The position numbers were made by a program, and so were the translations under genes. Below the pieces are notes generated by a model that did no database searches, was not told the origin of the DNA, and worked only from the letters and a program-made list of their open reading frames with translations. 29,898 bases of DNA from Desulfobacteraceae bacterium (GTDB lineage: Bacteria; Desulfobacterota; Desulfobacteria; Desulfobacterales; Desulfobacteraceae), in NCBI GenBank assembly GCA_003354055.1, contig PIVQ01000020.1, positions 1 to 29,898 on the forward strand, read 5' to 3'. Below, piece by piece: positions 9,768-26,052 of the stretch; the stretch's first letter is position 1, and the number at the start of each line of letters is the position of its first letter.

Positions 9768-9777
9768 CACGGATTTA

Positions 9778-10329
9778 TTATTTAGCCTTATCCTGGATCC
9801 GTTTTTCAAAATCCAGAAGATCGGCATACTTGACCTCAAGACGCTGTTTTTCTTCCATCATCCTGTCTTTGGTTCTGTCCAGCCGGGTCAGGATTACATT
9901 ATAAAATCCCTTTTTAATGATTTCCGCAATATGATCATCTTTCAAATTTTCAATCACAGACATATCAATACAGAGACAAACGCCTTTTGTAACGGAAACA
10001 ACAGAGGCAGTTCTCGGAATTCCCTCCAGAACACTCATCTCACCAAATATTTCGCCCGGCTTTGAAAAATTGATCACCAACTCTCCATTCTGAATTACAT
10101 TGTAGGAGCCTTTGATCACCCAGAAGGACCAGCAGTCAAAATCCCCCTCATTGATAACCGTCTCTCCGGCATTGTATTGGCAGAGTTTTGCGATCCGGCT
10201 TTCATATTCAACTTCCATGCTTAAAATTTTTTTAATCTCATCAATGGAAAGATCGGCAAAAATCATAAATTTCCGGATCACGTTAATGATCGGTTCATTG
10301 AGCAGATTTGTTTTTAAATCTTTTGCCAT
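9778..10329 (-). CDS. Cyclic-nucleotide-binding-domain protein without DNA-binding domain
   Basis: 183-residue protein with one cNMP-binding (CAP-ED) domain at about 20-140. The phosphate-binding cassette reads KPGEIFGEMSVLEGIPRTAS (90-109), keeping the Glu and the Arg-Thr that contact the cyclic phosphate in the family. Instead of a Crp-type helix-turn-helix, the last 40 residues form a charged helix (DRTKDRMMEEKQRLEVKYAD) likely to be a coiled coil. It therefore looks like a stand-alone sensor acting through protein contacts. The ATG at 10327-10329 has GGGAG upstream. It is convergent with the hybrid kinase at 8010-9767 (10-nt gap) and follows a small unknown gene on the same strand. The ligand and partner are not evident. 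Confidence 0.85.
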   Translation of the reverse strand: MAKDLKTNLLNEPIINVIRKFMIFADLSIDEIKKILSMEVEYESRIAKLCQYNAGETVINEGDFDCWSFWVIKGSYNVIQNGELVINFSKPGEIFGEMSVLEGIPRTASVVSVTKGVCLCIDMSVIENLKDDHIAEIIKKGFYNVILTRLDRTKDRMMEEKQRLEVKYADLLDFEKRIQDKAK

Positions 10330-10361
10330 GGGAAACTCCCGGACTCACTGTAAAGGGATTA

Positions 10362-10421
10362 TTTCTTATACCCGATGGTTGTTTTTTGTACCCGCTGGTT
10401 ATTCTTTATAACCGATATTGT
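10362..10421. repeat. Three tandem 20-nt degenerate repeats at the 3' end of a small gene
   Basis: Three back-to-back 20-mers: TTTCTTATACCCGATGGTTG (10362-10381), TTTTTTGTACCCGCTGGTTA (10382-10401) and TTCTTTATAACCGATATTGT (10402-10421). The first two agree at 16 of 20 positions. In the minus reading, the rightmost copy encodes most of the C-terminus (NIGYKE) of the 89-aa protein and the stop lies at the repeat junction, so the extra copies fall after the stop codon. Confidence 0.6.
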
Positions 10422-10668
10422 CCAGGAAATGCCGGTGCCGCATCCTGAACAGGGACTTATCTTCATTTACCAGGTAATAGGTTTTGTTGTTGTAATCGTC
10501 AAAGCATTGATACAGACCGGTATATCCCGGGATATCTCCCGCATCACAGACCCGCTCTACATCATCGTTGAACCTGCGGCAGACTGTGGGCCAGTCCTCT
10601 GTCTCTGCGTTTTCTCCGATTTTAATTTCAAAAGGATCCTGTGTGTACTCCGCCTGGACTGCCTGCAT
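10399..10668 (-). CDS. Small conserved-looking protein of unknown function
   Basis: 89-residue acidic soluble protein that I do not recognise. The start chosen is the ATG at 10666-10668, because GGAGG precedes it by 7 nt; an in-frame ATG nine codons upstream has no ribosome site. The sequence is rich in Asp, Glu, Tyr and Asn (ENAETEDWPTVCRRFNDDVE, YQCFDDYNNKTYYLVNEDKS), with two cysteines before residue 60 and a basic patch FRMRHRHF near the end. No signal peptide or membrane helix is seen. It precedes the cNMP-binding gene by 70 nt on the same strand, so co-transcription is likely. Its last codons form one unit of a 20-nt tandem repeat. Confidence 0.6.
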   Translation of the reverse strand: MQAVQAEYTQDPFEIKIGENAETEDWPTVCRRFNDDVERVCDAGDIPGYTGLYQCFDDYNNKTYYLVNEDKSLFRMRHRHFLDNIGYKE

Positions 10669-10744
10669 AGATGACCTCCAAATGGATAAATTCACGTACT
10701 GATATCATATAAAAAAACTTGGTGTTTTGTCCATACCAAAGCTC

Positions 10745-10816
10745 ATTAAAGCTTTGCATTAACGTATAGCGTTAAAGCTGTGCATTAACGTAAAGCATTA
10801 AAGCTGTGCATTAATG
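10745..10816. repeat. 2.8-copy tandem repeat of a 26-nt unit
   Basis: Units begin at 10745, 10771 and 10797 (the last is truncated). The shared core is TTAAAGCTGTGCATTAACGT followed by AAAGC; the first unit has TTTGC and TATAGC variants. Inside the tract, TTAACG (10759-10764) and CGTTAA (10770-10775) make a short inverted repeat. It lies directly after the last lipoprotein gene and may act as an mRNA 3' element, or simply be slippage-derived. Confidence 0.8.
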
Positions 10817-10819
10817 TCA

Positions 10820-11395
10820 TCAAAACAATTTATCAATCTCCCGGTCCAGCTCTTTTTTACCCTCTTTTGCCTTAAACTCCTGCCATTCGGCCTCTTCGTC
10901 CTGAAAAGAGGAAATCACCTGGTTGCGCACGGATTGTTTAACCGCATCCGTATCCATCACCACCAGCACATAAAGATCTGAACTGGGTGAAATCCATACG
11001 TCTTCCTGCCTGGATCCGTTCAGGGTCTCCCGGGTGACCTGTTTGACGACCTGCTTGCCCAGGCGGTCCACCATCTGGGCATCGCCTATCCCAGTCTGTT
11101 GGGTAAAATTATTTACCAGGGAATTGACCCGGACAGACAATTGGCTGGCCAGCTCATTCCGGGCATTGGCCAGGGCGGCGTTTTTGGCAAACTGCATCCC
11201 GGATTTCCCTATTTTTGCAGATCCCACCGCAGAGAACACATCTCCATCATGACCGGTCAACACCCATTCCGGTGCATTTTCAAACTCCTCTTCCATGGCC
11301 TCATTGTCAATGCGTTTATTACCGCAGCCTGCCAGTCCTAAAATAAGCAGGCAAATTCCAATCATTCCGAAAATACGTATTATTTTGTTTTCCAC
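10820..11395 (-). CDS. LPP20-like lipoprotein
   Basis: 191-residue predicted lipoprotein. The start is taken as GTG (11393-11395), since AGGAG lies 9 nt upstream and the following residues form a proper signal: NKIIRIFGMIGICLLILGLAGC with lipobox LAGC and Cys24. The mature part resembles LPP20/DUF4136-like envelope lipoproteins: APEWVLTGHDGDVFSAVGSA, then AALANARNELASQL, the alanine-rich helix typical of LPP20 proteins. It continues with QVTRETLNGSRQEDVWISP and LYVLVVMD, and ends with a charged tail. It lies 16 nt after the upstream LPP20-like gene and is the last gene of a four-gene lipoprotein cluster. The exact role is unknown; these proteins are often found with LpoB-type factors. Confidence 0.8.
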   Translation of the reverse strand: MENKIIRIFGMIGICLLILGLAGCGNKRIDNEAMEEEFENAPEWVLTGHDGDVFSAVGSAKIGKSGMQFAKNAALANARNELASQLSVRVNSLVNNFTQQTGIGDAQMVDRLGKQVVKQVTRETLNGSRQEDVWISPSSDLYVLVVMDTDAVKQSVRNQVISSFQDEEAEWQEFKAKEGKKELDREIDKLF

Positions 11396-11411
11396 CTGTG
11401 ATTCTCCTCTT

Positions 11412-12467
11412 TTAGTTACCACTGTATCCAAGGGCAACAAGCAGGCTCTTGGCCAAAGACCTTGCAACGGACTCCACAGCCCTGAGCCTGGCCTCATTCT
11501 GATCCCTGTGACCTTTGCGGACTTTTTCATTAATCTGGGCAAACAGGGTCTGCGCCTGGGTTTCAAACACCTGAACACTGCCCCTGGCCCTGACAAATTC
11601 GGCATCGGGATTCCCCAGATCCACCAGTGCAACCTCAACCCGGCCCGTCACGCTGGCATTGGCGCTCCCGGGGTCATTCACCAGGGTGATGCCCTTTTCG
11701 GTCAGCCCCTGGGCAATGATCTCTCCGACCCGATATCCCTCTTCCCCCCCAACCATGATATAGACCATAAGTTCCGACTTAAGCCGGGTCTGTTCCGATA
11801 TCACCGACCCGATTTCAGGCTCGGTAAGATCCGCCACAGGATAATCAATCACCCTGCATCGCCCTTCCAGCACCCGGCGATCCATACTCTTACCAATTAT
11901 CCGGTTAAGGCCTGCCATCCGCGACAATGGCCCTTGAGTTACGTTCAAGGCCCTTACTTCGGCCCGGATTTCACTGTCTATGGCATCAACCTGGGAGGCC
12001 CAGGTCTGCCCGGCGTCACTCCGGTCCAGAACGGCCAGGGCATTGTAAAGTCCTGTCTCCTCATCTTTCCAACTTGTGCCGATTCGGGCCCCCTGAAGGA
12101 CCATATCCGAATCAATACGAATTCTGGACGCCATCTTTTTTTCAAAGGCCTCAGCCTGGTCCTGGGTCATACTGGAGGTGGACAAACTGGTAAACTGAGA
12201 CGAAATTCTGGATTCAAATATCCCGGACAACTCTGCCATGGCCTGCTTTCCGGCTTCATTTTCCGTTTTCCCGGTTCCCCTGACCGTTAAATAGCGGTTT
12301 TCCGGAAACTCAATCCCAGCCTCCGTGACAGGAGCGGGTGTTTTTCCACATCCTGATGCCAGCAGAACCATAAGAATTATCGCAAACAGGTGCCTGATCA
12401 GCTTTTTTGCACCCGTTACGCCCGTTGCGCCCGGCTCTGAACGATATTTTAGAGTTGTCCGGTTCAT
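11412..12467 (-). CDS. LPP20-family-like lipoprotein, two-part
   Basis: 351-residue predicted lipoprotein. A 20-residue basic N-terminal extension precedes a hydrophobic stretch (about 25-36) and lipobox LLASGC with Cys40. The first half has RYLTVRGTGKTENEAGKQAMAELSG, the LPP20-type pattern (G.G....A...A..+.L...). The central part (LEGRCRVIDYPVADL) and the second half (ELMVYIMVGGEEGYRVGEIIAQGLTEKGITLV) look like a second alpha/beta domain that resembles TolB-N-type or LpoB-type folds; this last point is inference. The ATG overlaps the stop of the COG3014-like gene (ATGA, 4 nt), giving translational coupling. It is followed 16 nt later by a second, shorter LPP20-like gene. Confidence 0.75.
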   Translation of the reverse strand: MNRTTLKYRSEPGATGVTGAKKLIRHLFAIILMVLLASGCGKTPAPVTEAGIEFPENRYLTVRGTGKTENEAGKQAMAELSGIFESRISSQFTSLSTSSMTQDQAEAFEKKMASRIRIDSDMVLQGARIGTSWKDEETGLYNALAVLDRSDAGQTWASQVDAIDSEIRAEVRALNVTQGPLSRMAGLNRIIGKSMDRRVLEGRCRVIDYPVADLTEPEIGSVISEQTRLKSELMVYIMVGGEEGYRVGEIIAQGLTEKGITLVNDPGSANASVTGRVEVALVDLGNPDAEFVRARGSVQVFETQAQTLFAQINEKVRKGHRDQNEARLRAVESVARSLAKSLLVALGYSGN

Positions 12468-13786
12468 TGAAAGGCCCTCCCCAAAGAATCATTTACCACA
12501 ATATAATGTATTTGCCCTGCCTTCACCAGTACCTTTTTCCGTACCTCCCTGTCATGGGTGCGAAGTGCTGCATTCCATACACCCGGCGGTAAAAAAGACC
12601 GCGCCATATAAACCTGGCCGGGTAACGACTGCCAGGACCTTAGGTCTGCATGTTCCAACAAAAGGTTGAACAGATTCAGGATATTTTCAACCATACGCTG
12701 CATCTCCTTGTCATCGTTTTTCGCCACTTCCCGGATAACCGCCTGTTTGGCAGCAGCCCTGGCAATGGCCTTGGCCGTAATCCTGACCCTCCGGTCTTCA
12801 AGGTTTTTCACGGCAATGGCCCCGACATCCGAGACCAGATCAGCGTTTACCCGGATGGTTTCTTCCGATTCGGATTTCAAGATAAGCACCGGCTCGGTCT
12901 CCGGTAAATCAGGACGGGCAAATCGTGGAAAAGCGATTGTTAATGGCCCGTGGGGCGTATGAATCGAAATCCTGTCTTCCTGTTTTTCAGGCACCCGGCC
13001 TTTGAGATGAATCCAGACCACCTGGCCCAGGGATGTCCAATCTTCCTGCTCGGAAGGAAACGGGTAATCAGGCAGCATCTCTTCAGCATCCGATTCCCGC
13101 CCGGCCAGAGCCGCCGTCCGGAATAAATCCGCCTTCAGGCTTTCCGGTGCATTTAACCCGTAGTACTCCCCGTATTCCCCATAGGTTTGAAGGGCTTTTT
13201 TATAATCAATAAACGCCCCGTCCGGATCACCATCACCTTCCCTGAGGATACCGCTAAGATACCGGCCAAAGGCATCTTCCTTATAAATATTTTTTTCTTC
13301 GTACTTGTCATTGTACAGGGTGAGCAGGGAATCCATACGCCGGCACTCCACCAACGCCTCTTCAGGATCGCCTTCATCCAGATAGGCCAAAGCCGACATG
13401 AGATGAATCATGGCCCGCTCAAAATCCTCGCCTGCGTATTCCAGCACATAGTCGTTGGTCAGATAGGAGGCAAACTCCCTGGACAGACTCAGGGTCCACA
13501 GGTTCTCCGCCAGATCCTCCGCTGCTCTGAACTTTTCCTGGGCCGCCTCAAATTCCCTGCACCGCATATGCACCATGGCTGAATCCAACAAAAACAACAA
13601 GGTGCCATTATCCCCGTATTCCTCGGCACTGGCAGCCATCAGCATGGAGGCAGCCTCACACTCCCCCCTGACCAGATGAGAGCTCAAGGTATCATAGGGC
13701 ACATGCCCGGCGCACCCGGCTATCAGCAATCCAAAACAGAAAACAGCAACAACCAGAACCCGGGAAGAATGAAGCGGTTTCACCAT
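12464..13786 (-). CDS. COG3014-like lipoprotein with TPR-like helices
   Basis: 440-residue predicted lipoprotein of a family I associate with COG3014 (uncharacterised). The signal runs to LLIAGC with Cys25. Residues about 30-250 are helical and TPR-like (AAQEKFRAAEDLAENLW, ALAYLDEGDPEEALVECRRM, GAFIDYKKALQTYGEYGEYY), followed by a beta-rich region (WIHLKGRVPEKQEDRISIHT) and a conserved-looking tail (RRVRITAKAIARAAAKQAVI, ADLRSWQSLPGQVYMARSFLPPG). It is sandwiched 8 nt after the LpoB-like gene and overlaps the next LPP20-like gene by 4 nt. The same trio occurs together in other Gram-negatives, to my knowledge, and suggests an outer-membrane lipoprotein complex. The molecular function is unknown. 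Confidence 0.8.
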   Translation of the reverse strand: MVKPLHSSRVLVVAVFCFGLLIAGCAGHVPYDTLSSHLVRGECEAASMLMAASAEEYGDNGTLLFLLDSAMVHMRCREFEAAQEKFRAAEDLAENLWTLSLSREFASYLTNDYVLEYAGEDFERAMIHLMSALAYLDEGDPEEALVECRRMDSLLTLYNDKYEEKNIYKEDAFGRYLSGILREGDGDPDGAFIDYKKALQTYGEYGEYYGLNAPESLKADLFRTAALAGRESDAEEMLPDYPFPSEQEDWTSLGQVVWIHLKGRVPEKQEDRISIHTPHGPLTIAFPRFARPDLPETEPVLILKSESEETIRVNADLVSDVGAIAVKNLEDRRVRITAKAIARAAAKQAVIREVAKNDDKEMQRMVENILNLFNLLLEHADLRSWQSLPGQVYMARSFLPPGVWNAALRTHDREVRKKVLVKAGQIHYIVVNDSLGRAFQ

Positions 13787-13794
13787 ACCCGAAA

Positions 13795-14421
13795 TCAGAG
13801 CCAGAACTTTTTCTTTTCAACCATTTTCTTGATCTTCTTCTCACCCAGCCATACTTTTTTATGGCTCTGGATATGAATCAGCTCCAGGTTGACCTGAAAG
13901 TACTTAACTTCCTTGCCCTCGATCCTGTCGGAAATGGTATTGATGCTGCCCTGGAGCATAAAATCAGCCCCGATTTCCTGCCCCTCTTCCTTGGCAGTCT
14001 CTTCAGAGGAATGTCCGGCCTGGTCTTTACGCTCCGCCCGAATCTCCATCCGCTCCTGACTGCTGGCCACAAGATCCACACGGCCAGAGTTGACCAGCGC
14101 CCGCTCCAGATCCTTAACAAAGGTTTGGGTATTGATATGCTCATCACTTCTGTTTCGAACCGTTCCCACAATCACGGAAGGTGCCGCGCCCTGATTCGCC
14201 ACCCTGTGATCACTCAGCCAGGGTCTTTCCAGCACATCCCTGACCATCTCCTCGGATACCAGCCTGGAATCACTGTCATTCCACCGCCCACTCAGATCAA
14301 TGGTCTTATCCACCTCCACCCGGTCCACCTTGGTAGTGGCACAGCCTGTCATCAGCAATGCCGCAACCGCAACAAAAACAGACATTCCAAAACCCTGCCA
14401 AACCTTCTGCAGTCCCTTCAT
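13795..14421 (-). CDS. lpoB: LpoB-like lipoprotein (penicillin-binding protein activator family)
   Basis: 208-residue lipoprotein resembling LpoB (YcfM), the outer-membrane activator of penicillin-binding protein PBP1b. The signal ends in lipobox LMTGC with Cys27 (numbering from the ATG at 14419-14421, chosen because GGAAGA precedes it by 4-6 nt; an ATG seven codons upstream lacks a site). The mature protein shows family hallmarks: TIDLSGRWNDSDSRLVSEEM, then VIVGTVRNRSDEHINTQTFV, LERALVNSGRVDLVAS, and GADFMLQGSINTISDRIEGK with YFQVNLELIHIQSHKKVWLG. First gene of a lipoprotein operon. Whether it really activates a PBP here is inference; many LpoB-fold proteins outside enterobacteria have other roles. 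Confidence 0.82.
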   Translation of the reverse strand: MKGLQKVWQGFGMSVFVAVAALLMTGCATTKVDRVEVDKTIDLSGRWNDSDSRLVSEEMVRDVLERPWLSDHRVANQGAAPSVIVGTVRNRSDEHINTQTFVKDLERALVNSGRVDLVASSQERMEIRAERKDQAGHSSEETAKEEGQEIGADFMLQGSINTISDRIEGKEVKYFQVNLELIHIQSHKKVWLGEKKIKKMVEKKKFWL

Positions 14422-14422
14422 A

Positions 14423-14545
14423 TCATCTTCCTTTTTTATCATTTTTCAGCCCTCTGGCCGTTCTTTGAATGGCCCGTTGTGAAGTCTTGTGAGTATCCCT
14501 CTGATAATTAAATTCGACCAGGCCATGAATATTTCCACTGATCAT
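14423..14545 (-). CDS. Possible 40-aa ORF preceding and coupled to lpoB
   Basis: A 40-codon ORF (MISGNIHGLVEFNYQRDTHK..., strongly basic and polar) starts at 14543-14545 and ends with TGA one nucleotide before the lpoB ATG (TGATATG). The predicted transcription start falls at or next to its ATG, so it would be translated leaderless. The lpoB ribosome site lies within its last codons, as in coupled gene pairs. I do not recognise it. There is no Shine-Dalgarno and no homology evidence, so it may not be translated. Confidence 0.3.
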   Translation of the reverse strand: MISGNIHGLVEFNYQRDTHKTSQRAIQRTARGLKNDKKGR

Positions 14546-14581: not shown

Positions 14582-15059
14582 TGAAACGGCCTGAACACTT
14601 GGGTTAAAATATGTAATTTTTTGTGAGAAATTTAACCATCGTACCCTTAACCCGGCAGCCGAAACCGCGGGACCCTCCACTAAAACCCCGCCGCTCGTCC
14701 TAAGCGGCAAGGTAGCGGAAATTTCCAGTTCTGTCAGTCCGTGACGCCCCGAAAATTTACGCCGTTCCGGGCCTCCACGGCTCCGACTGCCTGGCCCCCA
14801 AGGTTTGCAATCTTAAGAAATTTACCCCGTACAACATAGCCGTTTTGGCATATCTAAAGTTTAAACTTGCATTTTCAAGCCGGTAATGTTCTTACTCAGC
14901 GTACGTCGACGTGAAAATCTGCTTTTCAGAATTGAAAAAATGGGGGTAAGCCCTTGAATTATCTCAGGCGGATATCATTCAGAAAGACATGATATGCGAC
15001 CAAGTATTAATACTCGAAAGATATACATATCCCAACTATCCGGGTCCGGTCAACAACTT
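14582..15059. other. Non-coding junction between lipoprotein operon and AT-rich module
   Basis: About 480 bases with no convincing gene on either strand. Composition changes within it, from GC-rich up to about 14.8 kb to AT-rich after about 14.9 kb, which probably marks the edge of an acquired segment. A small hairpin, GCCGCT/AGCGGC, lies at 14690-14708. I found no tRNA, integrase or clear direct repeat matching the right side of the module. Confidence 0.5.
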
Positions 15060-15098
15060 GTTAATTTTTGTTAATTTAAAATTGACATATGTTAATTT
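15060..15098. promoter_or_regulatory. Phased operator half-sites GTTAATTT
   Basis: Three direct copies of GTTAATTT start at 15060, 15070 and 15091, that is one and two helical turns apart. The middle copy also forms a near-palindrome with AAATTGAC (15070-15086, one mismatch), which overlaps the promoter -35 box; the third copy fills the promoter spacer. This is how a self-repressing CI-like regulator would bind. Confidence 0.6.
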
Positions 15099-15110
15099 AC
15101 ATATTACATT
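15082..15110 (+). promoter_or_regulatory. Sigma-70 promoter of the repressor-methyltransferase-nuclease module
   Basis: TTGACA (15082-15087), 17-nt spacer, TACATT (15105-15110). The predicted start point is near 15117, about 20-30 nt before the candidate ATGs of the repressor gene. The -35 box and spacer are covered by the GTTAATTT half-sites. Confidence 0.6.
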
Positions 15111-15139
15111 AAATGAGTAATTATTAACTTTTTTATTTG

Positions 15140-15802
15140 ATGCTTAATATGAATGCAATAAATTTCTATTCTTTTTATCAAAGATTAATCAACGAAGATA
15201 TTATTACGTCTCAGAGGGAATTGGCTTCGTTGTTGGGTATCAAGGGTTCTGCGATATCACAGGCAAAGAGACGGAAAGTAATCCCCCGTTCATGGATACC
15301 CACAATTTCTGAAAAGATGAATTTGACCCCTGAATGGATTAAAACAGGCAACGGGGAAAAATATTTTGATAAGTTCTGCGATAATAATCATAGCTTTGAG
15401 GTAGTCCCTAAAGTGAAGGCGCGCTTATCTGCGGGAGACGGTTCTTTCGATGTAGATCAAAAAATTTCCGAATACTATTCATTTCAAAAAATTTGGTTAA
15501 GGAAAAAAGGTAATCCTAAAGACATGGTTTTAATGGATATTGCTGGCAATAGTATGGAACCTGAGTTGAAAGATGGAGATACCGTTCTTATTGATGGATC
15601 TAAAAATGAAATATTAGCAGGAGCAATCTATGCAGTCGGCGTTGAGGATACTGTTTTGATAAAAAGGGTTGAAAAACTTCCGAACAAGCTTGTTTTGATA
15701 AGTGACAATGAAAAGTATTCCCCAACCTACATAACAGGTGATGATATCAATCGTGTAAGGGTTTTAGGAAAGATCATATGGATTTGCCGAGAGATGAAAT
15801 AA
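15140..15802 (+). CDS. CI/LexA-like repressor: HTH plus S24 peptidase domain
   Basis: About 220-residue transcriptional repressor of the phage CI / S24 family. The N-terminal helix-turn-helix region (about 10-70) has SQRELASLLGIKGSAISQAK, then RSWIPTISEKMNLTPEWIKTG. The linker ARLSAGDGSF matches the usual region before the peptidase fold. The C-terminal S24 domain has the nucleophile Ser in AGNSMEPELKDGDTVLID and the general-base Lys in DTVLIKRVEKLP. Such proteins can self-cleave on RecA activation; the Ser/Lys dyad is intact, so induction by DNA damage is possible (inference). The start is uncertain: ATG at 15140 or 15149, both without a good ribosome site. It sits directly before the methyltransferase gene, behind a promoter carrying phased operator-like repeats, so it probably represses itself and the module. 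Confidence 0.88.
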   Translation: MLNMNAINFYSFYQRLINEDIITSQRELASLLGIKGSAISQAKRRKVIPRSWIPTISEKMNLTPEWIKTGNGEKYFDKFCDNNHSFEVVPKVKARLSAGDGSFDVDQKISEYYSFQKIWLRKKGNPKDMVLMDIAGNSMEPELKDGDTVLIDGSKNEILAGAIYAVGVEDTVLIKRVEKLPNKLVLISDNEKYSPTYITGDDINRVRVLGKIIWICREMK

Positions 15803-15832
15803 AATATTTGTTCAGTTGGGTATCTATATCTC

Positions 15833-18800
15833 ATGCATAATGTCATTGATATAAAACAATTTTTAACTTGCCTTAACTATTCTGATTCACCTTTCTTTTT
15901 TGAAGGATCTCGACTTGACGAGGTCAATGCATATTCTAATGCCTTCCGTATAGCCAAAGAAAAATGTGGGCTTAAAGGAGTTTACGCTTTAGATGGTAAT
16001 CAAGAAGGACAATCTATTGTCCCTCTTGTCTACGTTTGTGAAGCTGAATCAGAAAAACAGGCGATCGAAAGGCATCGATTGGTATGGAATCAAAATTGCG
16101 TCCCCTTTCTTCTGGTTGTAACTCCAAAATCAATTCGGTTATATCCTGGTTTCAAGTTTGATACATCAAAACAATTAGATGGTAAGGATCAAAGCCTTCT
16201 CAAAATAGCAAAAACGACAAACGAAATTCTTGAAAAATTATCGGATTTTAGGGCTGACTCCATTAATAAAGGTATCATTTGGGAAAAATGGCAACATCAA
16301 GTAACCCCTGATACCAAAGTCGATCAAAATCTACTTAAGAATCTGGAAGAACTTGGTAGTTGGCTAAGAGAGAACGAATTACACGAGAAAACATCCCATG
16401 CTTTAATTGGTAAATATGTCTACCTTCGCTATCTCAGGGATAGAGACATTCTTTCTGACCGTAAATTAGACCAATGGAACATTGATTTGAGTTTAGTGTT
16501 TGGTAGAAATGCTACAGTTTCCGGTTTTGAAACACTTGTTAAGAAAATTGATCAGTGGCTTAACGGAAGTATCTTTCCCGTCCCAACCAAAGGGGATCTC
16601 TCCCCTCGGAATGAACATATCAAAAAAGTGGCGTCTGTATTTCTTGGAGATGATCCTATTTCCGGCCAAATGCATCTAGATTTTAAAGCCTACAATTTTG
16701 AACATATTCCGATTGAAACTTTGTCTGTGGTATATCAGCAGTTTCTCCATGCGGAAAAAAGAGGACCAAGCCAAGGTGCGTATTATACGCCTGTCCACCT
16801 TGTAAATTTCATGCTAGATGAACTTGATTCCAAAAAAGTACTAAAAAAAGGTATGAAGGTGTTCGATCCCGCATGTGGGTCAGGCGCTTTCATTGTTCAA
16901 TGTTTTAGAAGACTAATAGAAAGAGAGTTGTCAACAGCAAGTAGTTCAAAACTCAAACCATCAGAATTAAAAAGTCTGCTGGTGGAGCACATTTTTGGCA
17001 TTGATATTGATGAGGATGCTTGTGGCGTAACAGAGCTAAGCCTTGTGCTTACCCTATTGGATTATATTGACCCCCCCGATTTAGAAGATACAAGATACCA
17101 ACATTTTAAGTTGCCAGCATTAAGAGATAAAAATATTTTCTTTTGTAAAAACGGATTCTTTGATGGTAATTCGATTCAGGAAAAAGAACTATCCAGATTG
17201 AAGTTCGACTGGATTGTAGGGAATCCGCCTTGGAAATTGCTAAAAGAGAAACCAGAAGAATTAGCAGATCAATTCGCCGTAGCTTGGATCAAAAAAAATA
17301 AAAAAGAGTATCCTGTCAATAAAAATCAGATTGCAGAAGCCTTTGTGTGGAAGTCATCCTTGTGCCTTTCTGAAGACGGTGTTACAGGGCTCTTGCTACC
17401 AGGGAAAACCCTGTTTAAAATTCAGGAAAATGCTATTGAATTCAGGGCACATTTTTTTGCTAAAATGGATGCCTGGTGTATTGTAAACTTTGCAAACCTC
17501 AGACGTATTTTGTTCAAGGGAGCAACCAATCCCGCGACGGCATTTTTCTACAAGGCTGCGAAAAAAAATTCAGAAAAACCAAGAAGTATTCTTACTTATG
17601 CTCCCTTTGCAATGAACCAGATATCTCAATATGATCTTTCAAAACGTAGTAAGAAAAAATTATGGACTGTTCTTGTCAATACTGATGAGATGCGCGAGAT
17701 TCCTTATAGGGAAGTTTTATCCGGATCATCTTTTCCATGGAAGATGGCAATGTGGGGAACGAGACGGGATCAATATCTTCTTGTCTCATTACAAAAAGCC
17801 TTTGTTAGCATGTCAGCATTTGCAAAGGCCCATGGTTTAGATATCGCAGAAGGGCCACAATTGAGAGATGCAACACAAAAGGAAACAACAGAACCTATCT
17901 CAGAGGTGGCTGGCAAAGAACAACTTATTATGAAAGAGTTAGACGGTTGCGGAAAAATATTTTCTTTTCCTAAAAAAGCACTAAAAGCAATTCCAAAACC
18001 AATGGCCCATGTGCGTAAAGGTCGCGGTAAAATACCGTTGAAAATATGTCGCCCCCCCCATATTGTCGTTGATGCAAATAGACGCTTCTCTGTTTTTTCA
18101 GACCAGTTTATTGCTGTCCCACCCCGCCAGATAGGAATAGCAGCAGATGCAACAAAGACAAATCTTTTAAAAGCATTGGCATTGTATTTAAGCTCGGATT
18201 TTGTTCAATATCAGCAATATCTATCTTCACCATCCTGGGGCATTGGAATGGAACGATTGACTAAGAAAGATCTTGAATCTCTTCCGGTTCCACTTGATAA
18301 GCTATCTGATGACGAAGTTGGGGAATGGGCAAAGCTTTACAATGAAATAGTTCAACAATCTGCAAAACACATCGCGGAAGAACAATTTTTCAAAAAAATT
18401 GACAAACGGTCAGAGTTAAAGCCGCTAATGGATAAAATTAATAAAACAGTTAATGCTTTATTAGGCCTTACAACAGATGAAAAATGCCTTGTTCATGATT
18501 TTGTTACAACAAGAATGAAATTTAATGATGGTGCTATCCCTACGATTGTAAATGATCTTGCCTCTAAAGATGAAATAATGGCGTATTCCAGAACTCTGAA
18601 AAAAGTCTTAGATGATTTTCTTGATGCTGATATTAGCAATCAGCACCAGATTACCGCCAATTATTCAAAATCCATGGTTCTTCTGACCATTGAACACTCT
18701 GAAGACAAACTTGCTGAGTCTGTGATTGTTACAAAGATAACTGATGCGGAGTTAAAAGAAGAATTAAAAAATCTTGAAACAAATTTGAAATTTGAGCAGG

Positions 18801-18958
18801 GGCAGTGGATCTATTTTCAAAAAAATCTGAGATTATTTCATGGCAGGACCACATATTTTGTTAAATCACGGCAAAGACTTGGCTGGCTCCAAAGCCAGGC
18901 TTTTACAGATGCGGATGAATTCATTGCTGAAAAATTGATAACGACCGGAAATGATTAG
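15833..18958 (+). CDS. Large N6-adenine DNA methyltransferase (restriction-modification type)
   Basis: 1041-residue DNA methyltransferase transferring a methyl group from S-adenosylmethionine to adenine N6. About 180 N-terminal residues form an alpha/beta region of unknown role (PLVYVCEAESEK, PFLLVVTPKSIRLYPGF) with no visible PD-(D/E)xK residues. A helical part (about 165-310) follows, then motif X QGAYYTP (314-320), SAM-binding motif I DPACGSGAF (345-353), HIFGIDID (387-393) and catalytic motif IV NPPW (464-467). The C-terminal 500 residues probably hold the target-recognition and helical parts. It resembles type IIG/type I modification subunits. It starts 30 nt after the repressor stop with no clear Shine-Dalgarno, and its TAG stop abuts the ATG of the next gene (TAGATG). 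AT-rich compared with flanking genes. Confidence 0.88.
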   Translation: MHNVIDIKQFLTCLNYSDSPFFFEGSRLDEVNAYSNAFRIAKEKCGLKGVYALDGNQEGQSIVPLVYVCEAESEKQAIERHRLVWNQNCVPFLLVVTPKSIRLYPGFKFDTSKQLDGKDQSLLKIAKTTNEILEKLSDFRADSINKGIIWEKWQHQVTPDTKVDQNLLKNLEELGSWLRENELHEKTSHALIGKYVYLRYLRDRDILSDRKLDQWNIDLSLVFGRNATVSGFETLVKKIDQWLNGSIFPVPTKGDLSPRNEHIKKVASVFLGDDPISGQMHLDFKAYNFEHIPIETLSVVYQQFLHAEKRGPSQGAYYTPVHLVNFMLDELDSKKVLKKGMKVFDPACGSGAFIVQCFRRLIERELSTASSSKLKPSELKSLLVEHIFGIDIDEDACGVTELSLVLTLLDYIDPPDLEDTRYQHFKLPALRDKNIFFCKNGFFDGNSIQEKELSRLKFDWIVGNPPWKLLKEKPEELADQFAVAWIKKNKKEYPVNKNQIAEAFVWKSSLCLSEDGVTGLLLPGKTLFKIQENAIEFRAHFFAKMDAWCIVNFANLRRILFKGATNPATAFFYKAAKKNSEKPRSILTYAPFAMNQISQYDLSKRSKKKLWTVLVNTDEMREIPYREVLSGSSFPWKMAMWGTRRDQYLLVSLQKAFVSMSAFAKAHGLDIAEGPQLRDATQKETTEPISEVAGKEQLIMKELDGCGKIFSFPKKALKAIPKPMAHVRKGRGKIPLKICRPPHIVVDANRRFSVFSDQFIAVPPRQIGIAADATKTNLLKALALYLSSDFVQYQQYLSSPSWGIGMERLTKKDLESLPVPLDKLSDDEVGEWAKLYNEIVQQSAKHIAEEQFFKKIDKRSELKPLMDKINKTVNALLGLTTDEKCLVHDFVTTRMKFNDGAIPTIVNDLASKDEIMAYSRTLKKVLDDFLDADISNQHQITANYSKSMVLLTIEHSEDKLAESVIVTKITDAELKEELKNLETNLKFEQGQWIYFQKNLRLFHGRTTYFVKSRQRLGWLQSQAFTDADEFIAEKLITTGND

Positions 18959-19615
18959 ATGCAATCAGACAAGCAACTCAAAGCGAACGACGGCAAAGAG
19001 TACCAAAAAGCATTTCGAAGAAAAATTTTCAAATTGTTGAATATGGGTTACAATCGCCTTGATGCTGCCTCTTTAAAGGACTCTGAGGAAGAGGATATAA
19101 CCGGGGAGATCGTAAGAGAAATTAATGAAATACTTGAAGATAGAGAATCTCCGCCTTGGGTGGGGTCTTTTGCCGTCCATGAAGAACTACGAATCAATGA
19201 ACCAGATCGGAAAGGTAAACGACGAAAGAGAGTTGATATTGAATTTGAATGGGTCTGTCATGGACCTCGCCAACATTATCCCTTTGAAGCCAAGCGTCTT
19301 CGAGTGAACTCTCATCCCATAGGTGAATATGTAGGCCCAGCAGGGCTTGGAGAATTCCTTTCAGGAAATTATGCTCATGACAGAATAGAAGCCGGGATGA
19401 TAGGCTATATTCAATCGGATACTCCTGAATCCTGGTCCGCAAAAATTCAAAAAAAATTTAAAAAAGAACCTGAAATAATTCAAGCTTGCTCGGATGGGGA
19501 ATGGACAAATATTACAATTATTGAGGAAATTAGGCATTGCTTTCGCTCAAAACATCATCGAACTACGTTGGATAGACCTATTACCCTTTATCACATATTT
19601 CTTATTTTTTGCTAA
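18959..19615 (+). CDS. Putative restriction nuclease, PD-(D/E)xK-like
   Basis: 218-residue basic protein I do not recognise by name. The central segment KRRKRVDIEFEW followed by HYPFEAKRLRV fits a PD-(D/E)xK nuclease core: Asp93 in a beta strand, then Glu110-Ala-Lys112 in the next, preceded by an acidic helix (EEEDITGEIVREINEILEDR) that could supply the first Glu. It further has YVGPAGLGEFLSGNYAHDRI and AGMIGYIQSD, and a C-terminal RSKHHRTTLDRPITLYHIFL that looks like a natural end. Its ATG immediately follows the stop of the methyltransferase, so the two are co-expressed and form an apparent modification/restriction pair. The nuclease call rests on motif reading, without homology evidence; a specificity or sensing subunit is the alternative. 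Confidence 0.65.
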   Translation: MQSDKQLKANDGKEYQKAFRRKIFKLLNMGYNRLDAASLKDSEEEDITGEIVREINEILEDRESPPWVGSFAVHEELRINEPDRKGKRRKRVDIEFEWVCHGPRQHYPFEAKRLRVNSHPIGEYVGPAGLGEFLSGNYAHDRIEAGMIGYIQSDTPESWSAKIQKKFKKEPEIIQACSDGEWTNITIIEEIRHCFRSKHHRTTLDRPITLYHIFLIFC

Positions 19616-19665
19616 TAGTTTGTTGATCATTACTCAATTCAAACAAGAAACATGATGCGGACAAG

Positions 19666-20095
19666 CCACAGATGTTCGAAGTTAAAAATCAAATTATATC
19701 TCCGGTTCGGCGATCAGCTATGGCCAACAAAATATATAAGGTTGAATTCGGCACTTAGGGTTGGGCAGGCCGGCCCGGTGGCAACCACCAGTAACCTGTA
19801 TTACCGGCATACGTTTGCCCTGGAAAAGTAGTCGGACTATTTTGATATGATGTTTTATGACCTTCCTGATGACACGATTTCAATTGCCCATACAGATTTT
19901 TCACAGATAGCGTATATTTTCTGGAAGAATAAATATGTCGGCTATGCGATATTTATTAATGATAAAAAACAAAGACACCAGATCAAGGCACGGCTCACCA
20001 TACTCAACCCGGAACAGATTGCAGATATTCATGAAATGGCCATGACCATACCCGGCAGCCGGCACAAAACCATCATCATGGCCGGGACAATTTTA
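19666..20095 (+). pseudogene. Decayed coding sequence ending in an MttB N-terminal fragment
   Basis: Two frames carry protein-like sequence joined by lesions: FEVKNQIISPVRRSAMANKI running to a TAG near 19760, then in another frame GQAGPVATTSNLYYRHTFAL, a TAG at 19829-19831, and SDYFDMMFYDLPDDTISIAH with FSQIAYIFWKNKYVGYAIFI. The parent family is not recognised. From 19978 the same frame enters QIKARLTILNPEQIADIHEM, a near-exact copy of the N-terminus of the MttB-family protein encoded at 26380, cut off after about 24 codons and followed by unrelated sequence up to the DUF2059 gene. It lies just right of the AT-rich module and looks like debris of past rearrangement. Confidence 0.6.
19978..20041 (+). 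repeat. 64-nt duplicate of the mttB-family gene start (copy A)
   Basis: Identical at 63 of 64 positions to 26385-26448 (codons 2-23 of the methyltransferase gene); the single difference is GCA versus GCT. The next 8 nt match at 6 positions, then similarity stops. The low divergence, including at third codon positions, means a recent duplication or conversion. Confidence 0.9.
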
Positions 20096-21100: not shown

Positions 21101-23794
21101 ATGAGGAGATGTTCCTCTGAACCCGGGGTGATTCTGAAAAAACTGTCATTTGCCGTATTTATCTTCTTGTTCCTGGTGTCATTATCCTTTTGGAACTCAG
21201 CCGTTGCAGATGAGAGTGCTGCCCGGGATCAAGCCGAGGCCACCCTGAAAAATCTTAAAGCAGATATCAAGCTGGAGCGCTATCTTAAAAAATATGGGCC
21301 TGCGTTAGGTATAGACGCCATCAGTCTGGATGTAACCATAAATGGATTTTCCAGAAATTTTGAATTTTCCGGTTCCAACCTGCTGGATATGAAAAGGGTC
21401 CTTGTCATGATAGGGGAAGGTAATTTTACCGGGGCAAGGGATCAGACCATTGACTCCATGCTTGGGTATTTTGTTCCGGTCTATGGCCAGTATATGGGGG
21501 TTCAAAGTGCCTTTAAAACCACCGTTGAGTCCCTTGTTGAAAACTGGTCTCAGGATCTTTACACCACAGAGGCCTATAGCCTTGCAAGGGATATTTTGAA
21601 TGACCGGGCAATAGGGTATACACTCTATTATCCCAGTGTCCTTCTTGAGGAAGGGGATTTTAAGTCCTTCATGGCGGCACAGGAAGATTATTTTTTCTCA
21701 ACATGGCTTGAAGGAAGGCCCGGTAGAATTGTGCCGGAAGATGAACTTGCCAAGTATGCAGCTCTTATCCGGGAAAATACCGGGAAGGCCGGCCTTAGTC
21801 TCAGGCAGGTGTTTGATCATTTCATAGAGAAAATAGCCAAGGATCAAAAGGATCATTTTCTGACAAGCTTCAGGCTAACGTCTAAGCGGCTTGCCAAAAA
21901 ACAGGCAGAGCAAGCCCGGAATGCGATGATACTCGCTGAAAAAAAAGCCTTTGAAAAATTGATGAAAACCATTGCCGGCCCTGAGGCATTAAGGTTTGAT
22001 GCCGAGTTGTGCGATCCGTCAAAAGGAGTGCAAAGTTCCATATGTCTGAACTTTGCTTTCAAAGGGATCCCGGATGTTTCCTATTCAGTCAGTATTGACC
22101 TTGTCAAATTGGAAGACAACATCGAAAGCAGTCCCCTTCAAAGCAGGAACCTAACCTACGATGGGATGAAAACCATCCAGGACAGTCATGTATTTGCCCC
22201 TGTAGATTCTCCCGGTGATTACCAGGCCAGGATCTATGTCTATTCGCCCTTTGGCCATAAGGATTATCGGACAATATACCTCGCAGTGCCGGACAAGTCT
22301 GAGGCACTTGTTGAAGACGATAAATCCGAAGCTGCAATGGATGCTTATTACGACACTCTGCTGCAAGAGATCGAGGAAGAGATGAAAAGTACTGTCCTGC
22401 CGCAGATCAATCTATCCATGCGTAATCAAGAAGGGAATCAAATTTCCTCCCCGGTATCCTTGAATACGAATTGGTTGGATCTGACGGCTGATTTCAGGCA
22501 AAAGGAAGTGGTTGAGGAACCTGTATTTTTCGAGATTTCAGTCAGCAAACCTGATGGTTCTGTGTATATCTCAGACACCAGGACTTTTTCCCAAGGTACC
22601 TATTCGGGTAAATACCTCCTTTATAATAATTTTTATCAAGGCAGGATGCCCGGCGGAATGTACAAGATACGAATCACCATGTCCTATGAAAATGCACCCT
22701 CACAAAAAAAGGAGACAAATCTTTCGTTTGTTCTGCATCCCGGAGAATTGAGGGATGGTGAGACGGTATTTGAGGCGATCCAGCGCGGGGATGCAAAAAA
22801 AGCTGAAAAATTGCTCCGGGCAGGTGCTGATCCCGGATCAAAAAAAGGTGGGTATAGTGTTCATATGGCTGTGCAGAAGGGGCAACTTAATGTTGTATCA
22901 GCACTCATGCAAGCCGGCGCAGACCCGGATTTGAAAGATAAAAACAGTATCACGCCGCTTATGGCTGCAAGTCAAGCCGGCCTCAGTGAGATTGCACAGG
23001 TTTTGATTCAAAATGGTGCCGATATCAACGGCCAGGGATATAAAGATCTGACGCCGCTCCATTTCGCACTATTGAACAATCAGCCTGAAATGGCGCACTT
23101 CCTGATCGGCAAAGGTGCAAATGTCCATATCAGAAATCAGAAGGGAGAGACCCCCGGGTATTATGCATACTGGCTTATGAAAGACCCAGAACTTGCAGTC
23201 AAGGCCGGTTATTCCCAGGCAAAAGCGTTGGAGGATGCCAAGAGAAGAAAAGATGACTCTGCCGAGTTCCTGAAAGCCATGGCCCAGGGGATGCAGATGG
23301 CTGTTGTTGAATACAATAAGGCCGCTACCCTGCCTGCCCGGCAATCCCAAAATCTGAAATCAACCCAACGGAACAACCAGAGCAGTACGAACATGATCCC
23401 GAAGACAACCATTGCCAAATCTTTTCCCAATAAAGATCCATTGGCAAAGATGTACTATATCGAAATTTTCTGTCCCCATCCGAGTTATGTTGCAAGGGGC
23501 CCCGGGGTCAGCTTAGGATCATTCAAAGCCGCTGACAGGCGCACAAACAAATACGCTCTGGCACTGCCTTTTAGTGGAGAACTTCACAAAGATTCTACAA
23601 GCTCAACTGGCGGAGGCAAGATGCTTTCCATTCAGGACACATCGGCAAACAGAAAAAAAATCACGGGGATATTCCGTAAAAGAGATGACTACAAACAGAA
23701 AAATGCTGTTTTTTTGAGTAAAAGACCCCAGATCAAACCGTTCAGCTTTGATTTTTTTATTAAGGTAACAAAAGCGGACAAATCTCTTTATTAA
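21101..23794 (+). CDS. Large exported protein with C-terminal ankyrin repeats
   Basis: 897-residue protein with a signal sequence (hydrophobic 15-31, AVADES cleavage site near 36). Residues about 37-290 are helical and unlike any family I can name (DQTIDSMLGYFVPVYGQYMG, SLARDILNDRAIGYTLYYPS). About 295-545 is beta-rich, with two Ig-like stretches (YSVSIDLVKLED, DYQARIYVYSPFG, EEPVFFEISVSKPDGSVYIS, MYKIRITMSYENAPS). Then about four ankyrin repeats (552-690) with classic GADPDLKDKNSITPLMAASQ and GADINGQGYKDLTPLHFALL. The last 200 residues are low-complexity and basic. The start is fixed by AAGGAGG before the ATG. Periplasmic or surface location is likely; the function is unknown. The next gene also encodes an exported repeat protein. 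Confidence 0.82.
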   Translation: MRRCSSEPGVILKKLSFAVFIFLFLVSLSFWNSAVADESAARDQAEATLKNLKADIKLERYLKKYGPALGIDAISLDVTINGFSRNFEFSGSNLLDMKRVLVMIGEGNFTGARDQTIDSMLGYFVPVYGQYMGVQSAFKTTVESLVENWSQDLYTTEAYSLARDILNDRAIGYTLYYPSVLLEEGDFKSFMAAQEDYFFSTWLEGRPGRIVPEDELAKYAALIRENTGKAGLSLRQVFDHFIEKIAKDQKDHFLTSFRLTSKRLAKKQAEQARNAMILAEKKAFEKLMKTIAGPEALRFDAELCDPSKGVQSSICLNFAFKGIPDVSYSVSIDLVKLEDNIESSPLQSRNLTYDGMKTIQDSHVFAPVDSPGDYQARIYVYSPFGHKDYRTIYLAVPDKSEALVEDDKSEAAMDAYYDTLLQEIEEEMKSTVLPQINLSMRNQEGNQISSPVSLNTNWLDLTADFRQKEVVEEPVFFEISVSKPDGSVYISDTRTFSQGTYSGKYLLYNNFYQGRMPGGMYKIRITMSYENAPSQKKETNLSFVLHPGELRDGETVFEAIQRGDAKKAEKLLRAGADPGSKKGGYSVHMAVQKGQLNVVSALMQAGADPDLKDKNSITPLMAASQAGLSEIAQVLIQNGADINGQGYKDLTPLHFALLNNQPEMAHFLIGKGANVHIRNQKGETPGYYAYWLMKDPELAVKAGYSQAKALEDAKRRKDDSAEFLKAMAQGMQMAVVEYNKAATLPARQSQNLKSTQRNNQSSTNMIPKTTIAKSFPNKDPLAKMYYIEIFCPHPSYVARGPGVSLGSFKAADRRTNKYALALPFSGELHKDSTSSTGGGKMLSIQDTSANRKKITGIFRKRDDYKQKNAVFLSKRPQIKPFSFDFFIKVTKADKSLY

Positions 23795-23973: not shown

Positions 23974-26052
23974 ATGATAAAAATTATTTCATTTCTGTTG
24001 TTAGCTTGTCTGTCAGCTTGCCCTGTATTTATCTCACCTGTTTTTGCAGGGACACCAGCCGCCGGGGCTCCAACCACGGAAACCCAATACCTGGATCAGG
24101 CCCTGGCCCAAAAAAAAGCAAAGGATTATGCCGGCGCCGTTGAGAACTTTACCAAGGCCATTGAACTGAACCCTGATAATCCGGAATCCCATTTCCAGCG
24201 GGGAAGTATTAAATATTGGCTAAAAGACTACAGGGGGGCCATTGAGGATATCACCCGGGCCATTGAATTAAAGCCGGATTATGCCCATGCCTACAACAAC
24301 CGGGCCCTGACAAGAATCAAACTCAACGAATACCCCGATGCCATCCGGGATTATACCAAAATCCTTGAGCTGATGCCGGACCATGCCAAGACCTATATGA
24401 ACCGGGGGATACTTAAAAGAAAACTCAAAAACTACACAGGCGCCATTGAAGATTCCACAAAGGCCATTGAACTGGACCCGGGTCTTGCCAAAGCCTATTT
24501 AAGCCGGGGCCAGGCAAGGGAAGCCCTGAAAGACCATTCGGGGGTGATTGAGGATTATAGCAAGTATCTTGAATTCAACCCGGACAGCGTAAGCGTTGTC
24601 CAGGCCATTGGCCTGGCAAAATTCAGCTTAAAGGATTATCCCGGCGCCATAGAGGCATACACAAGGGCCATTGAGCTGAATCCCAATAGTGAAAACAGCC
24701 ATACCTATAGAGGGCTTGCCAGGTATAAACAGAGAGATTACACTGGGGCCGTTGATGACTTTACCCAATTAATCAAACTGAATCCCGACAACCTGACCGG
24801 GTATGCCAACCGCGCCGAAGCAAAGGAAAAACTAAAGGACTATGGGGGTGCGATCCCGGATTTTACCAGATTGATTGAGGCATACCCGGATAATGTCAAA
24901 GTCTGGCGAAGAAGGGGATTGGCAAGACTGAAGAGCAGGGATTATACGGGTTCGGTTCAGGACTATACCAGGGCCATTGAACTGGACCTCAAAAATGACG
25001 AGGCCTATTTATACCGGGGAATGGCAAAGGCCAATTTAAAAGATAATTCAGGGGCCATTGAAGACTATACCAAAGCCATTGAACTGAATCCAAAAAAATC
25101 CATAGGTTTTTACAATAGAGGGTTGGCAAAGAGCAGCTTAAAACGATACGCCGAGGCCATAGAGGATTATACCCAGGCCATCATACTTAATCCTAAAGCA
25201 AACAATGCCTATCATGGCCGGGGCCTTGCAAAAGCCAAACTTAAAGACTACACCGGAGCTGTTCAGGACTATACCCGGGCCATTGAGATCAATCCCAACA
25301 ATGCCCAGGTCTATTTTAACCGAAGCGATGCCAGATATGCCTTAAAGGATAACACCGGTACAATAGATGATTTATATACGGGTTATTTTAAACGGGCAGC
25401 CAATAAGTACAAACGCAAGGATTATGCAGGGGCCATTGCAGACTATACCAAAATGACCGAAATCAGTACCAAGAATTTTGAGGTTTATCTGAACCGGGGT
25501 ATGGCAAAGGACGGCATGAAGGATTATAAAGGGGCCATACCGGACTATGACAAGGCCATCCAGTTGGAGCCGGACAGCGGCCAGACTTACCGGCTCCGGG
25601 GTAGCTCAAAGGACAGTCTCAAGGATTTTACAGGGGCTGTACAGGACTACACCAAAGCCATTGAACTGGATCCAAAAGATGCCAAGGCCTTTTTACACCG
25701 GGCAAGGGTCAGGTCGTTGACCCAAAACCTTACAGGGGCTGTACAGGACTACACCAGGTCCATTGAACTGGATCCCGAAAATCCCAATGCATACCTGCAA
25801 AGGGCCATGTCCAATAACGCATTGAAGAAACATGACAAAGTACTTAAAGACCTGGCTAAATGTCTGGAATTGAACCCTGATGAACCAATGGCCTATTATA
25901 TACAGGGGTTAACCCGGTTCCTGCTCAAAGAGATCCCGCAGGCTATTCAGGACATGGAAAAGGCAAAAGAATTGTACACGGCCGGCAATGATCAGAAGAT
26001 GATCGACTCATGCAATAATTACTTAAAAAAAATGACTGCCAAAGAAAAATAA
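23974..26052 (+). CDS. Exported TPR-repeat protein, about 19 repeats
   Basis: 692-residue protein made almost wholly of 34-residue tetratricopeptide repeats from about residue 38 to 680, with the consensus Y.GAIEDYTKAIELNPDNA.AY..RG.AK..LKD. Such superhelices bind other proteins. An N-terminal signal is present; LSAC (Cys16) could serve as a lipobox, while SPVFAG (after residue 25) could be a signal-peptidase I site, so anchoring is uncertain. One repeat near the middle (NTGTIDDLYTGYFKRAANKY) is irregular. Several repeats are nearly identical at DNA level, such as 25630 and 25732, exactly 102 nt apart. GAGGATAAGG precedes the ATG. It follows the ankyrin-repeat gene by 179 nt; a partner relationship is possible but unproven. 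Confidence 0.9.
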   Translation: MIKIISFLLLACLSACPVFISPVFAGTPAAGAPTTETQYLDQALAQKKAKDYAGAVENFTKAIELNPDNPESHFQRGSIKYWLKDYRGAIEDITRAIELKPDYAHAYNNRALTRIKLNEYPDAIRDYTKILELMPDHAKTYMNRGILKRKLKNYTGAIEDSTKAIELDPGLAKAYLSRGQAREALKDHSGVIEDYSKYLEFNPDSVSVVQAIGLAKFSLKDYPGAIEAYTRAIELNPNSENSHTYRGLARYKQRDYTGAVDDFTQLIKLNPDNLTGYANRAEAKEKLKDYGGAIPDFTRLIEAYPDNVKVWRRRGLARLKSRDYTGSVQDYTRAIELDLKNDEAYLYRGMAKANLKDNSGAIEDYTKAIELNPKKSIGFYNRGLAKSSLKRYAEAIEDYTQAIILNPKANNAYHGRGLAKAKLKDYTGAVQDYTRAIEINPNNAQVYFNRSDARYALKDNTGTIDDLYTGYFKRAANKYKRKDYAGAIADYTKMTEISTKNFEVYLNRGMAKDGMKDYKGAIPDYDKAIQLEPDSGQTYRLRGSSKDSLKDFTGAVQDYTKAIELDPKDAKAFLHRARVRSLTQNLTGAVQDYTRSIELDPENPNAYLQRAMSNNALKKHDKVLKDLAKCLELNPDEPMAYYIQGLTRFLLKEIPQAIQDMEKAKELYTAGNDQKMIDSCNNYLKKMTAKEK

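Follow-up and report, generated by a model that had tools for sequence, protein, structure and literature searches.

The DNA analysed here, called the window, is a stretch of 29,898 nucleotides of contig PIVQ01000020.1 from a Desulfobacteraceae bacterium (assembly GCA_003354055.1). At 15149-19615 it carries three genes on the same strand, which encode, in this order, an S24 repressor, a large N6-adenine methyltransferase (MTase) and a 218-amino-acid nuclease-like protein (Table 1). The stop codon of the MTase gene (TAG, 18956-18958) directly abuts the ATG of the nuclease gene (18959). The spacer between the repressor and MTase genes is 30 bp, about 125 bp shorter than in L013 and L001 (L and G numbers denote loci and genomes). 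These are the nearest relatives among the fetched loci, with 81 and 79% MTase identity, and come from metagenome-assembled genomes labelled Deltaproteobacteria/Desulfobacterales. With a spacer this short, the repressor and MTase genes are probably cotranscribed. In a G+C scan of the window, the block lies at 0.34-0.40, the left flank at 0.46-0.54 in most intervals (0.42-0.43 at 9501-11000) and the immediate right flank at about 0.42-0.46. Thus, the AT-rich three-gene block with abutting second and third genes (TAGATG), which a preliminary description of this DNA had claimed, is borne out by the open reading frames (ORFs), the G+C dip and the quoted motifs.

Table 1. Features of the three-gene block, in window coordinates.
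Feature	Position	Strand	Basis or remark
Candidate operator TGTTAATTTAAAATTGACA (TGTTAA-N7-TTGACA)	15069..15087	+	right half is the -35 hexamer
Sigma-70-like promoter TTGACA-17-TACATT	15082..15110	+	10 of 12; best promoter-like site in 14950-19850
CI-type S24 repressor, 217 aa	15149..15802	+	Pfam, PHROG, catalytic residues
Putative repressor cleavage site A95-G96	15431-15436	+	alignment
Repressor Ser135	15551-15553	+	
Repressor Lys172	15662-15664	+	
Type IIG-like gamma-class N6-adenine MTase with target-recognition domain, 1041 aa	15833..18958	+	Pfam, PADLOC, fold
N-terminal domain, positioned like the nuclease domain of Type IIG enzymes, lacking ExK	15833..16312	+	about aa 1-160, boundary by eye
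Target-recognition region, diverged in close pairs	17690..18307	+	about aa 620-825, boundary by eye
PD-(D/E)xK nuclease, 218 aa	18959..19615	+	motif and predicted fold
Nuclease E44	19088-19090	+	
Nuclease D93	19235-19237	+	
Nuclease E110	19286-19288	+	
Nuclease K112	19292-19294	+	

The 218-amino-acid protein is, by motif and predicted fold, a PD-(D/E)xK nuclease, in agreement with its earlier reading. Judged from the alignment, its pattern VDIEFEW...FEAKRL is far beyond chance, because D93, E110, A111, K112, R113 and L114 are invariant in 59 aligned nuclease sequences. In 20 wide relatives D93 is also invariant, and E110 and K112 are found in at least 90%. The PD-(D/E)xK superfamily is defined by a conserved D and an ExK on core strands, and both are present. 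Type IIP enzymes, BamHI among them, head the matches of the predicted fold. At the thresholds used, the protein matched none of the models in Pfam, NCBIfam, PADLOC or PHROGs, so that a non-nuclease family was not encountered in the libraries searched; one of its 94 homologues (P0050) bears an unrelated precomputed Pfam number, PF00834. In L102 (93-443, minus strand) the nuclease frame behind the MTase stops early, at 116 amino acids, and the frames of the CI-type regulator and the MTase are open.

The MTase is matched by the Pfam families N6_Mtase (8.9e-17), Eco57I (1e-16) and MmeI_Mtase (3.1e-13) and by PADLOC 'Type IIG' models. Like the Type IIG enzymes BpuSI, DrdV, MmeI and Eco57I, it has by fold a gamma-class MTase core, a connector and a fused target-recognition domain (TRD); the fold alignment with DrdV starts at residue 31 of the model. 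In Type IIG enzymes the cleavage domain is N-terminal in the same chain, and Table 4 of the review on these enzymes gives no layout with R as a separate subunit (PMC3874165; this and the other PMC articles are cited for the parts of their text accessible to us). Here, in contrast, the N-terminal domain has no PD-(D/E)xK site, and the nuclease is encoded by a separate gene. Only 2 of 30 core and 0 of 21 wide MTase relatives have [DEQN]xK in the N-terminal strand 62-74, a survey that counts L102, in which this stretch is missing from the reading frame used. Since the N-terminal domain is devoid of the ExK residues, the large protein and the 218-amino-acid protein together look like a Type IIG enzyme with its nuclease on a separate subunit.

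MTase and nuclease form a stable pair. Of the 118 systems brought together, 109 have at least 700 bp downstream, and in 103 of these the MTase gene has the nuclease gene as its neighbour. Loci with all three genes exist as well, a condition on which the preliminary description had made its reading depend. The six loci without an adjacent nuclease are L011, L162, L163, L168, L169 and L180; L011 has a split MTase frame and a nuclease gene truncated by the contig end. In Desulfobacterota, 40 further MTases of the Eco57I family showed no such neighbour, a few of the fetched stretches ending soon after the MTase. A scan of GTDB genomes yielded 78 loci, which span Desulfobacterota, Planctomycetota, Acidobacteriota, Verrucomicrobiota, Kiritimatiellota, Bacteroidota, Bacillota and others (taxa as labelled). 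MTase relatives (E <= 1e-50) occur in 15 of 345 genomes of Bacteroidota, 10 of 297 of Desulfobacterota, 7 of 349 of Pseudomonadota and 5 of 299 of Bacillota, with the centre genome known before counted in each case. Carriage by phages or plasmids was considered and rejected: none of 50,697 records from phages matched the nuclease, the MTase matches of 13 viral contigs were all partial (24-31%), a fold search of BFVD gave nothing at E <= 0.001, and 57 plasmid records were all below 60% identity, none covering 80%. Enrichment in defence islands is not claimed either, as 90 of 242 flanking ORFs were scanned with no control and a given defence family was mostly matched in a single member.

In three close pairs of systems (L050/L052, L025/L060 and L002/L004) the MTases differ chiefly in their target-recognition part, which looks as though the specificity had been exchanged. 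The nucleases of L050 and L052 are 0.90 identical, and their MTases fall to 0.33-0.60 at about residues 662-800, the first TRD block (622-661) still being at 0.93. The nucleases of L025 and L060 are likewise 0.90 identical, with 0.30-0.42 at MTase residues 619-735 and lowered identity from about 551 to 880. TRD-region blocks in these two pairs are thus at 0.30-0.8 and most blocks outside at 0.8-1.0; L002/L004, with nuclease identity of 0.79, shows a milder form of this divergence. A nuclease with its own site should have changed along with the TRD, and we therefore infer that the MTase guides the nuclease.

The ORF of the repressor spans 15137..15802 (+), or 221 amino acids from a TTG, and its homologues start at the ATG at 15149. 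The protein matches Peptidase_S24 (9.9e-22) and Phage_CI_repr (1.5e-5) in Pfam and transcriptional repressors in PHROGs (1e-43); its top phage match is a Desulfovibrio phage repressor (32% identity). It has the helix-turn-helix (HTH) domain, the Ala-Gly site and the Ser-Lys dyad of self-cleaving S24 repressors, and with its S24 domain it is not a C protein, that is, a small HTH protein without a peptidase domain. Ala-Gly, Ser and Lys are present throughout an alignment of 24 S24 proteins with three kinds of HTH domain (those of 18 loci, a duplicate included, the window, L181, L182, L184, the orphan L183 and one host-type LexA). Since the LexA/CI family is known to behave in this way, release by RecA in the SOS response would be expected by analogy. 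The orphan CI-type regulator of L183 (352-1002, +) has no MTase beside it and starts 43 bp past the apparent end, by eye, of an integrase. In L185 (206-3352, minus strand) an S24-like match (6.7e-8) lies in a 1048-amino-acid protein, an odd place for this domain.

Of the 98 systems whose upstream sequence extends to at least 900 bp, 18 have an S24-type gene immediately before the MTase gene and in the same orientation, the regulators of L003 and L010 being identical. The same was found for none of 39 other Eco57I-family MTases (one-sided Fisher test, p = 0.0015); these controls come from 40 of the 84 matches listed, 30 of them viewed before in short loci without upstream flank, and one was dropped for having less than 900 bp upstream. 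Among 889 other genes of the same loci there are 2 S24 genes. The overlap or gap between regulator and MTase is -13 to 24 bp in 9 of the 18 loci. In Desulfobacterota, 13 of 18 loci with the nuclease have an S24 regulator (by label or search group). However, no S24 gene lies upstream in 70 of the 88 relatives with nuclease and at least 900 bp upstream. The S24 control proposed in the preliminary description is therefore supported for part of the loci, where the gene recurs and operator-like palindromes are partly present, and not for the family as a whole: the regulator is not part of the core system but a recurrent add-on of at least three kinds.

These kinds were named by us from the HTH parts and the mutual identities of the regulators: CI type (window, L001, L002, L003, L005, L013, L102, L103, L181 and L182), LexA type (L006, L024, L047, L099, L104, L105 and L167) and XRE-S24 type (L071, L078 and L156). 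Pfam S24 models matched 9 of 55 upstream ORFs, ten of which had built our own profile. In 13 genomes chosen for carrying such a system, PF00717 found 36 domains, 15 of which are these regulators (coordinates read by us); in G001 and G384 the system regulator is the only S24 domain found with this model, whose limit of sensitivity is seen in its failure to list the L071 regulator in its genome. A host LexA that happens to lie nearby was considered and rejected for G003 and G006, which have a second LexA-type gene; that of G003 (L186) adjoins apparent Y-family polymerase and DnaE genes (by eye). In G004 and G008, the LexA-type protein of the system is the only PF01726 match, so that it could also be the host LexA. 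A controller with an M78 peptidase (CapP-like) is not claimed: PADLOC capP matched 2 of 90 flanking proteins, and a scan for HExxH within 2.5 kb upstream gave only L021 on the MTase strand, 560 bp away. In L173 and L174 (Pseudomonadota) the MTase gene is closely preceded by one for a protein of 165-185 amino acids with the same MerR-like start (by eye), so that recruitment may have extended to other families of regulators.

On a FastTree tree of 94 MTases, the presence of S24 regulators needs at least seven changes, or eight if the kinds are distinguished, and related systems seem to have acquired such repressors on several independent occasions. L006 has a LexA-type regulator within a clade of MTases with CI-type regulators (its join with L005 has a support of 82), and this regulator shares 52-62% identity with its counterparts in L099, L104 and L105, which by their MTases belong to another clade. 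A second MTase clade (L102, L103, L181 and L182) has CI-type regulators 51-58% identical to those of the window group, the MTases of L102 and L103 being just 21-23% identical to that of the window. Because similar regulators serve different MTase clades, regulators appear to have been exchanged between systems. The genome of Eth-SRB2 (G003) alone has at least five systems, L005, L099, L181 and L182 with S24 regulators of two kinds and L100 without; the contig with L182 breaks off at the MTase, and two of the systems start about 23 kb apart on one contig.

Candidate operators were found at some of the regulator promoters. The region 14950-19850 has 13 promoter-like sites, not above shuffled sequences (mean 15.0), and the TTGACA of the window promoter is conserved in L001 and L013. 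TGTTAA-N6..7-TTRACA occurs in 5 of 12 CI-type regulator promoters against an expectation of 0.0075 from mononucleotide shuffles, the pattern having been picked after inspection of the same promoters, and the candidate operator is its sole match across the window. The LexA-type promoters of L024 (NaphS2) and L047 (Kiritimatiellae) have in common TACTGC-N8-GCAGTA, with one copy per whole genome in both, at the regulator promoter. A second LexA subgroup has ACTAYAC-N4-GTWTAGY at the regulator start codon, with one copy each in G003, G004, G245 and G266. Since these loci served to define the palindromes, the copies in them are there by construction, and one chance match per genome is unsurprising; what seems informative is that the first palindrome is common to two distant loci and the second to four, with no further exact genome copies. 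Since the scans of six genomes, made with zero mismatches, gave no further copies, the regulons look local, with one target, unlike the SOS regulon. The respective motifs were not seen in L167, in 7 of 12 CI-type promoters and in the three Bacteroidota loci. Control of the operon by the repressor is likely.

The explanation that we favour, and hold to be slightly on the probable side, is that of a split Type IIG-like restriction-modification (RM) system under an autoregulated, self-cleaving S24 repressor released by RecA. The large protein would recognise DNA through its TRD and methylate adenine. The small protein would be the cleavage subunit, which replaces the catalytically empty N-terminal domain and cuts where the large protein directs. 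The CI-type repressor would bind the palindrome over its own promoter and hold the operon low. RecA filaments on single-stranded DNA from damage, an invading phage or conjugating DNA would then induce the repressor to cut itself at Ala95-Gly96, and expression of the operon would rise. In this way a nuclease-bearing operon could be kept low until single-stranded DNA signals damage or invasion. The nuclease motif and fold, the gene pairing, the recurrence of S24 genes with intact cleavage residues and the palindromes in part of the loci are what is observed, and the partnership of the subunits, restriction of foreign DNA, autorepression and RecA-triggered release are inferences, the last drawn from the known behaviour of LexA and CI. 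The wider proposal is that restriction by this family belongs to a DNA-damage response, three kinds of S24 repressor (phage CI, LexA and Bacteroidota XRE) having been captured about seven times as exchangeable, RecA-responsive switches of split Type IIG systems, each with a single-target operator of its own. The number is the most parsimonious reading of the tree, and we regard this proposal as somewhat short of an even prospect. Some results limit the favoured explanation. The argument for guidance of the nuclease by the MTase comes from few pairs. In 51 core systems, partial correlations of the nuclease with the MTase regions, given the catalytic part, are 0.27 for the TRD, 0.44 for the helical, 0.35 for the N-terminal and 0.11 for the C-terminal region; being weak to moderate only, such co-variation was discarded as an argument. 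The reversed pattern of TACTGC-N8-GCAGTA is present at two places in G006 and absent from the other five genomes, and that of ACTAYAC-N4-GTWTAGY has one match, in G266; these controls weaken the operator argument.

The main rival holds that the S24 protein is a plain autorepressor which sets the dose of the operon and, in the manner of C proteins, postpones restriction when the system enters a new host; the peptidase would be a relic and damage irrelevant. Dedicated controllers are indeed common in RM systems (PMC3874152), and the operator-like palindromes at the regulator's own promoter in part of the loci speak for this view. A relic, however, would not need the cleavage dipeptide, Ser and Lys that all aligned regulators have kept across three kinds of HTH domain, and we judge this view rather unlikely. 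If instead MTase and nuclease read the same site independently, as in Type IIP pairs, the best fold matches of the nuclease would be accounted for, and in such pairs a gamma-class MTase commonly goes with a stand-alone PD-(D/E)xK endonuclease some 200 amino acids long. Against this, the TRD diverged without the nuclease in two pairs, and an MTase of Type IIG size retains an N-terminal domain without ExK; an ordinary Type II system is thus unlikely. It may also be imagined that the operon is a damage-triggered suicide or abortive module, in which the derepressed nuclease destroys DNA and methylation is the antidote, given that DNA-damage-controlled immune operons have been proposed to be kept low against toxicity (PMC13373217). 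Since the MTase gene is upstream on the same strand with no gap, protection should rise alongside the nuclease, which makes such a module distinctly improbable. The resemblance of the CI-type protein to phage repressors and the orphan copy beside an integrase-like fragment could be taken as signs of phage debris or a chance neighbourhood. This is extremely improbable in view of the control MTases, the number of changes on the tree and the close spacing to the MTase.

With respect to known systems, the proposed RecA-released regulators share HTH and S24 domains, Ala-Gly, Ser and Lys with LexA, phage CI and the non-canonical LexA of Bacteroidetes, and the Bacteroidota XRE-S24 regulators resemble the latter, which combines a phage-repressor HTH with S24 (PMC8565304). 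They differ from LexA and CI in lying upstream of an RM operon and in an exact palindrome found nowhere else in the six genomes. A dedicated regulator upstream of the operon is also a feature of Type II RM systems with C proteins; those are HTH activator/repressors, whereas a full-size repressor with a peptidase domain is found here, and the two mentions of LexA in the accessible text on C proteins concern toxin-antitoxin genes (PMC3874152). CapH with CapP, CapW/BrxR, and CapK with CapS are likewise DNA-damage-responsive regulators adjoining defence operons, but belong to other families (separate protease, WYL, kinase), and neither S24 nor LexA occurs in the accessible main text of that article (PMC13373217). 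HVO_A0006 of Haloferax volcanii is also a stand-alone PD-(D/E)xK piece related to Type IIG; it is described as a rare transposition-flanked fragment homologous to the Type IIG N terminus, not a conserved operon partner (PMC4389544). No description of an S24- or LexA-controlled RM system of this kind, and no named system, was found in the literature searched, preprints and most subscription papers lying outside it. Of the system suggested earlier to be undescribed or sparsely described, PADLOC already has Type IIG models for the MTase but none for the nuclease.

As for the surroundings of the block, no Pfam match to the BREX partners PglZ/BrxC was found among 18 distinct window proteins. To the left, an envelope-type gene cluster (10820-14442, minus strand) encodes two LPP20 lipoprotein-like proteins, a weak TPR protein and an LpoB-like protein. 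An 897-amino-acid protein (21101-23794) has ankyrin repeats around residues 553-690, preceded by a long N-terminal part without assignment. A 692-amino-acid TPR protein (23974-26052) scores 251.5 with the NCBIfam model of the magnetosome protein MamA (cut-off 200), probably as a sum over many TPR repeats rather than as a magnetosome protein.

Classical restriction is regarded as always on or as set by C proteins. In the literature accessible to us, the appearance of unmodified sites in E. coli leads to less Type I restriction, not more (restriction alleviation). If the explanation favoured above is true, RecA-triggered repressors repeatedly taking over an RM operon would represent the opposite wiring, and RM would join the systems of the CBASS (cyclic-oligonucleotide-based anti-phage signalling) and BREX (bacteriophage exclusion) types that have DNA-damage regulators (PMC13373217). 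A cleavage subunit encoded by its own gene would also add a layout to those of restriction enzymes. Because the nuclease matches no model of the four libraries, such loci may carry the annotation of a single-chain Type IIG enzyme.

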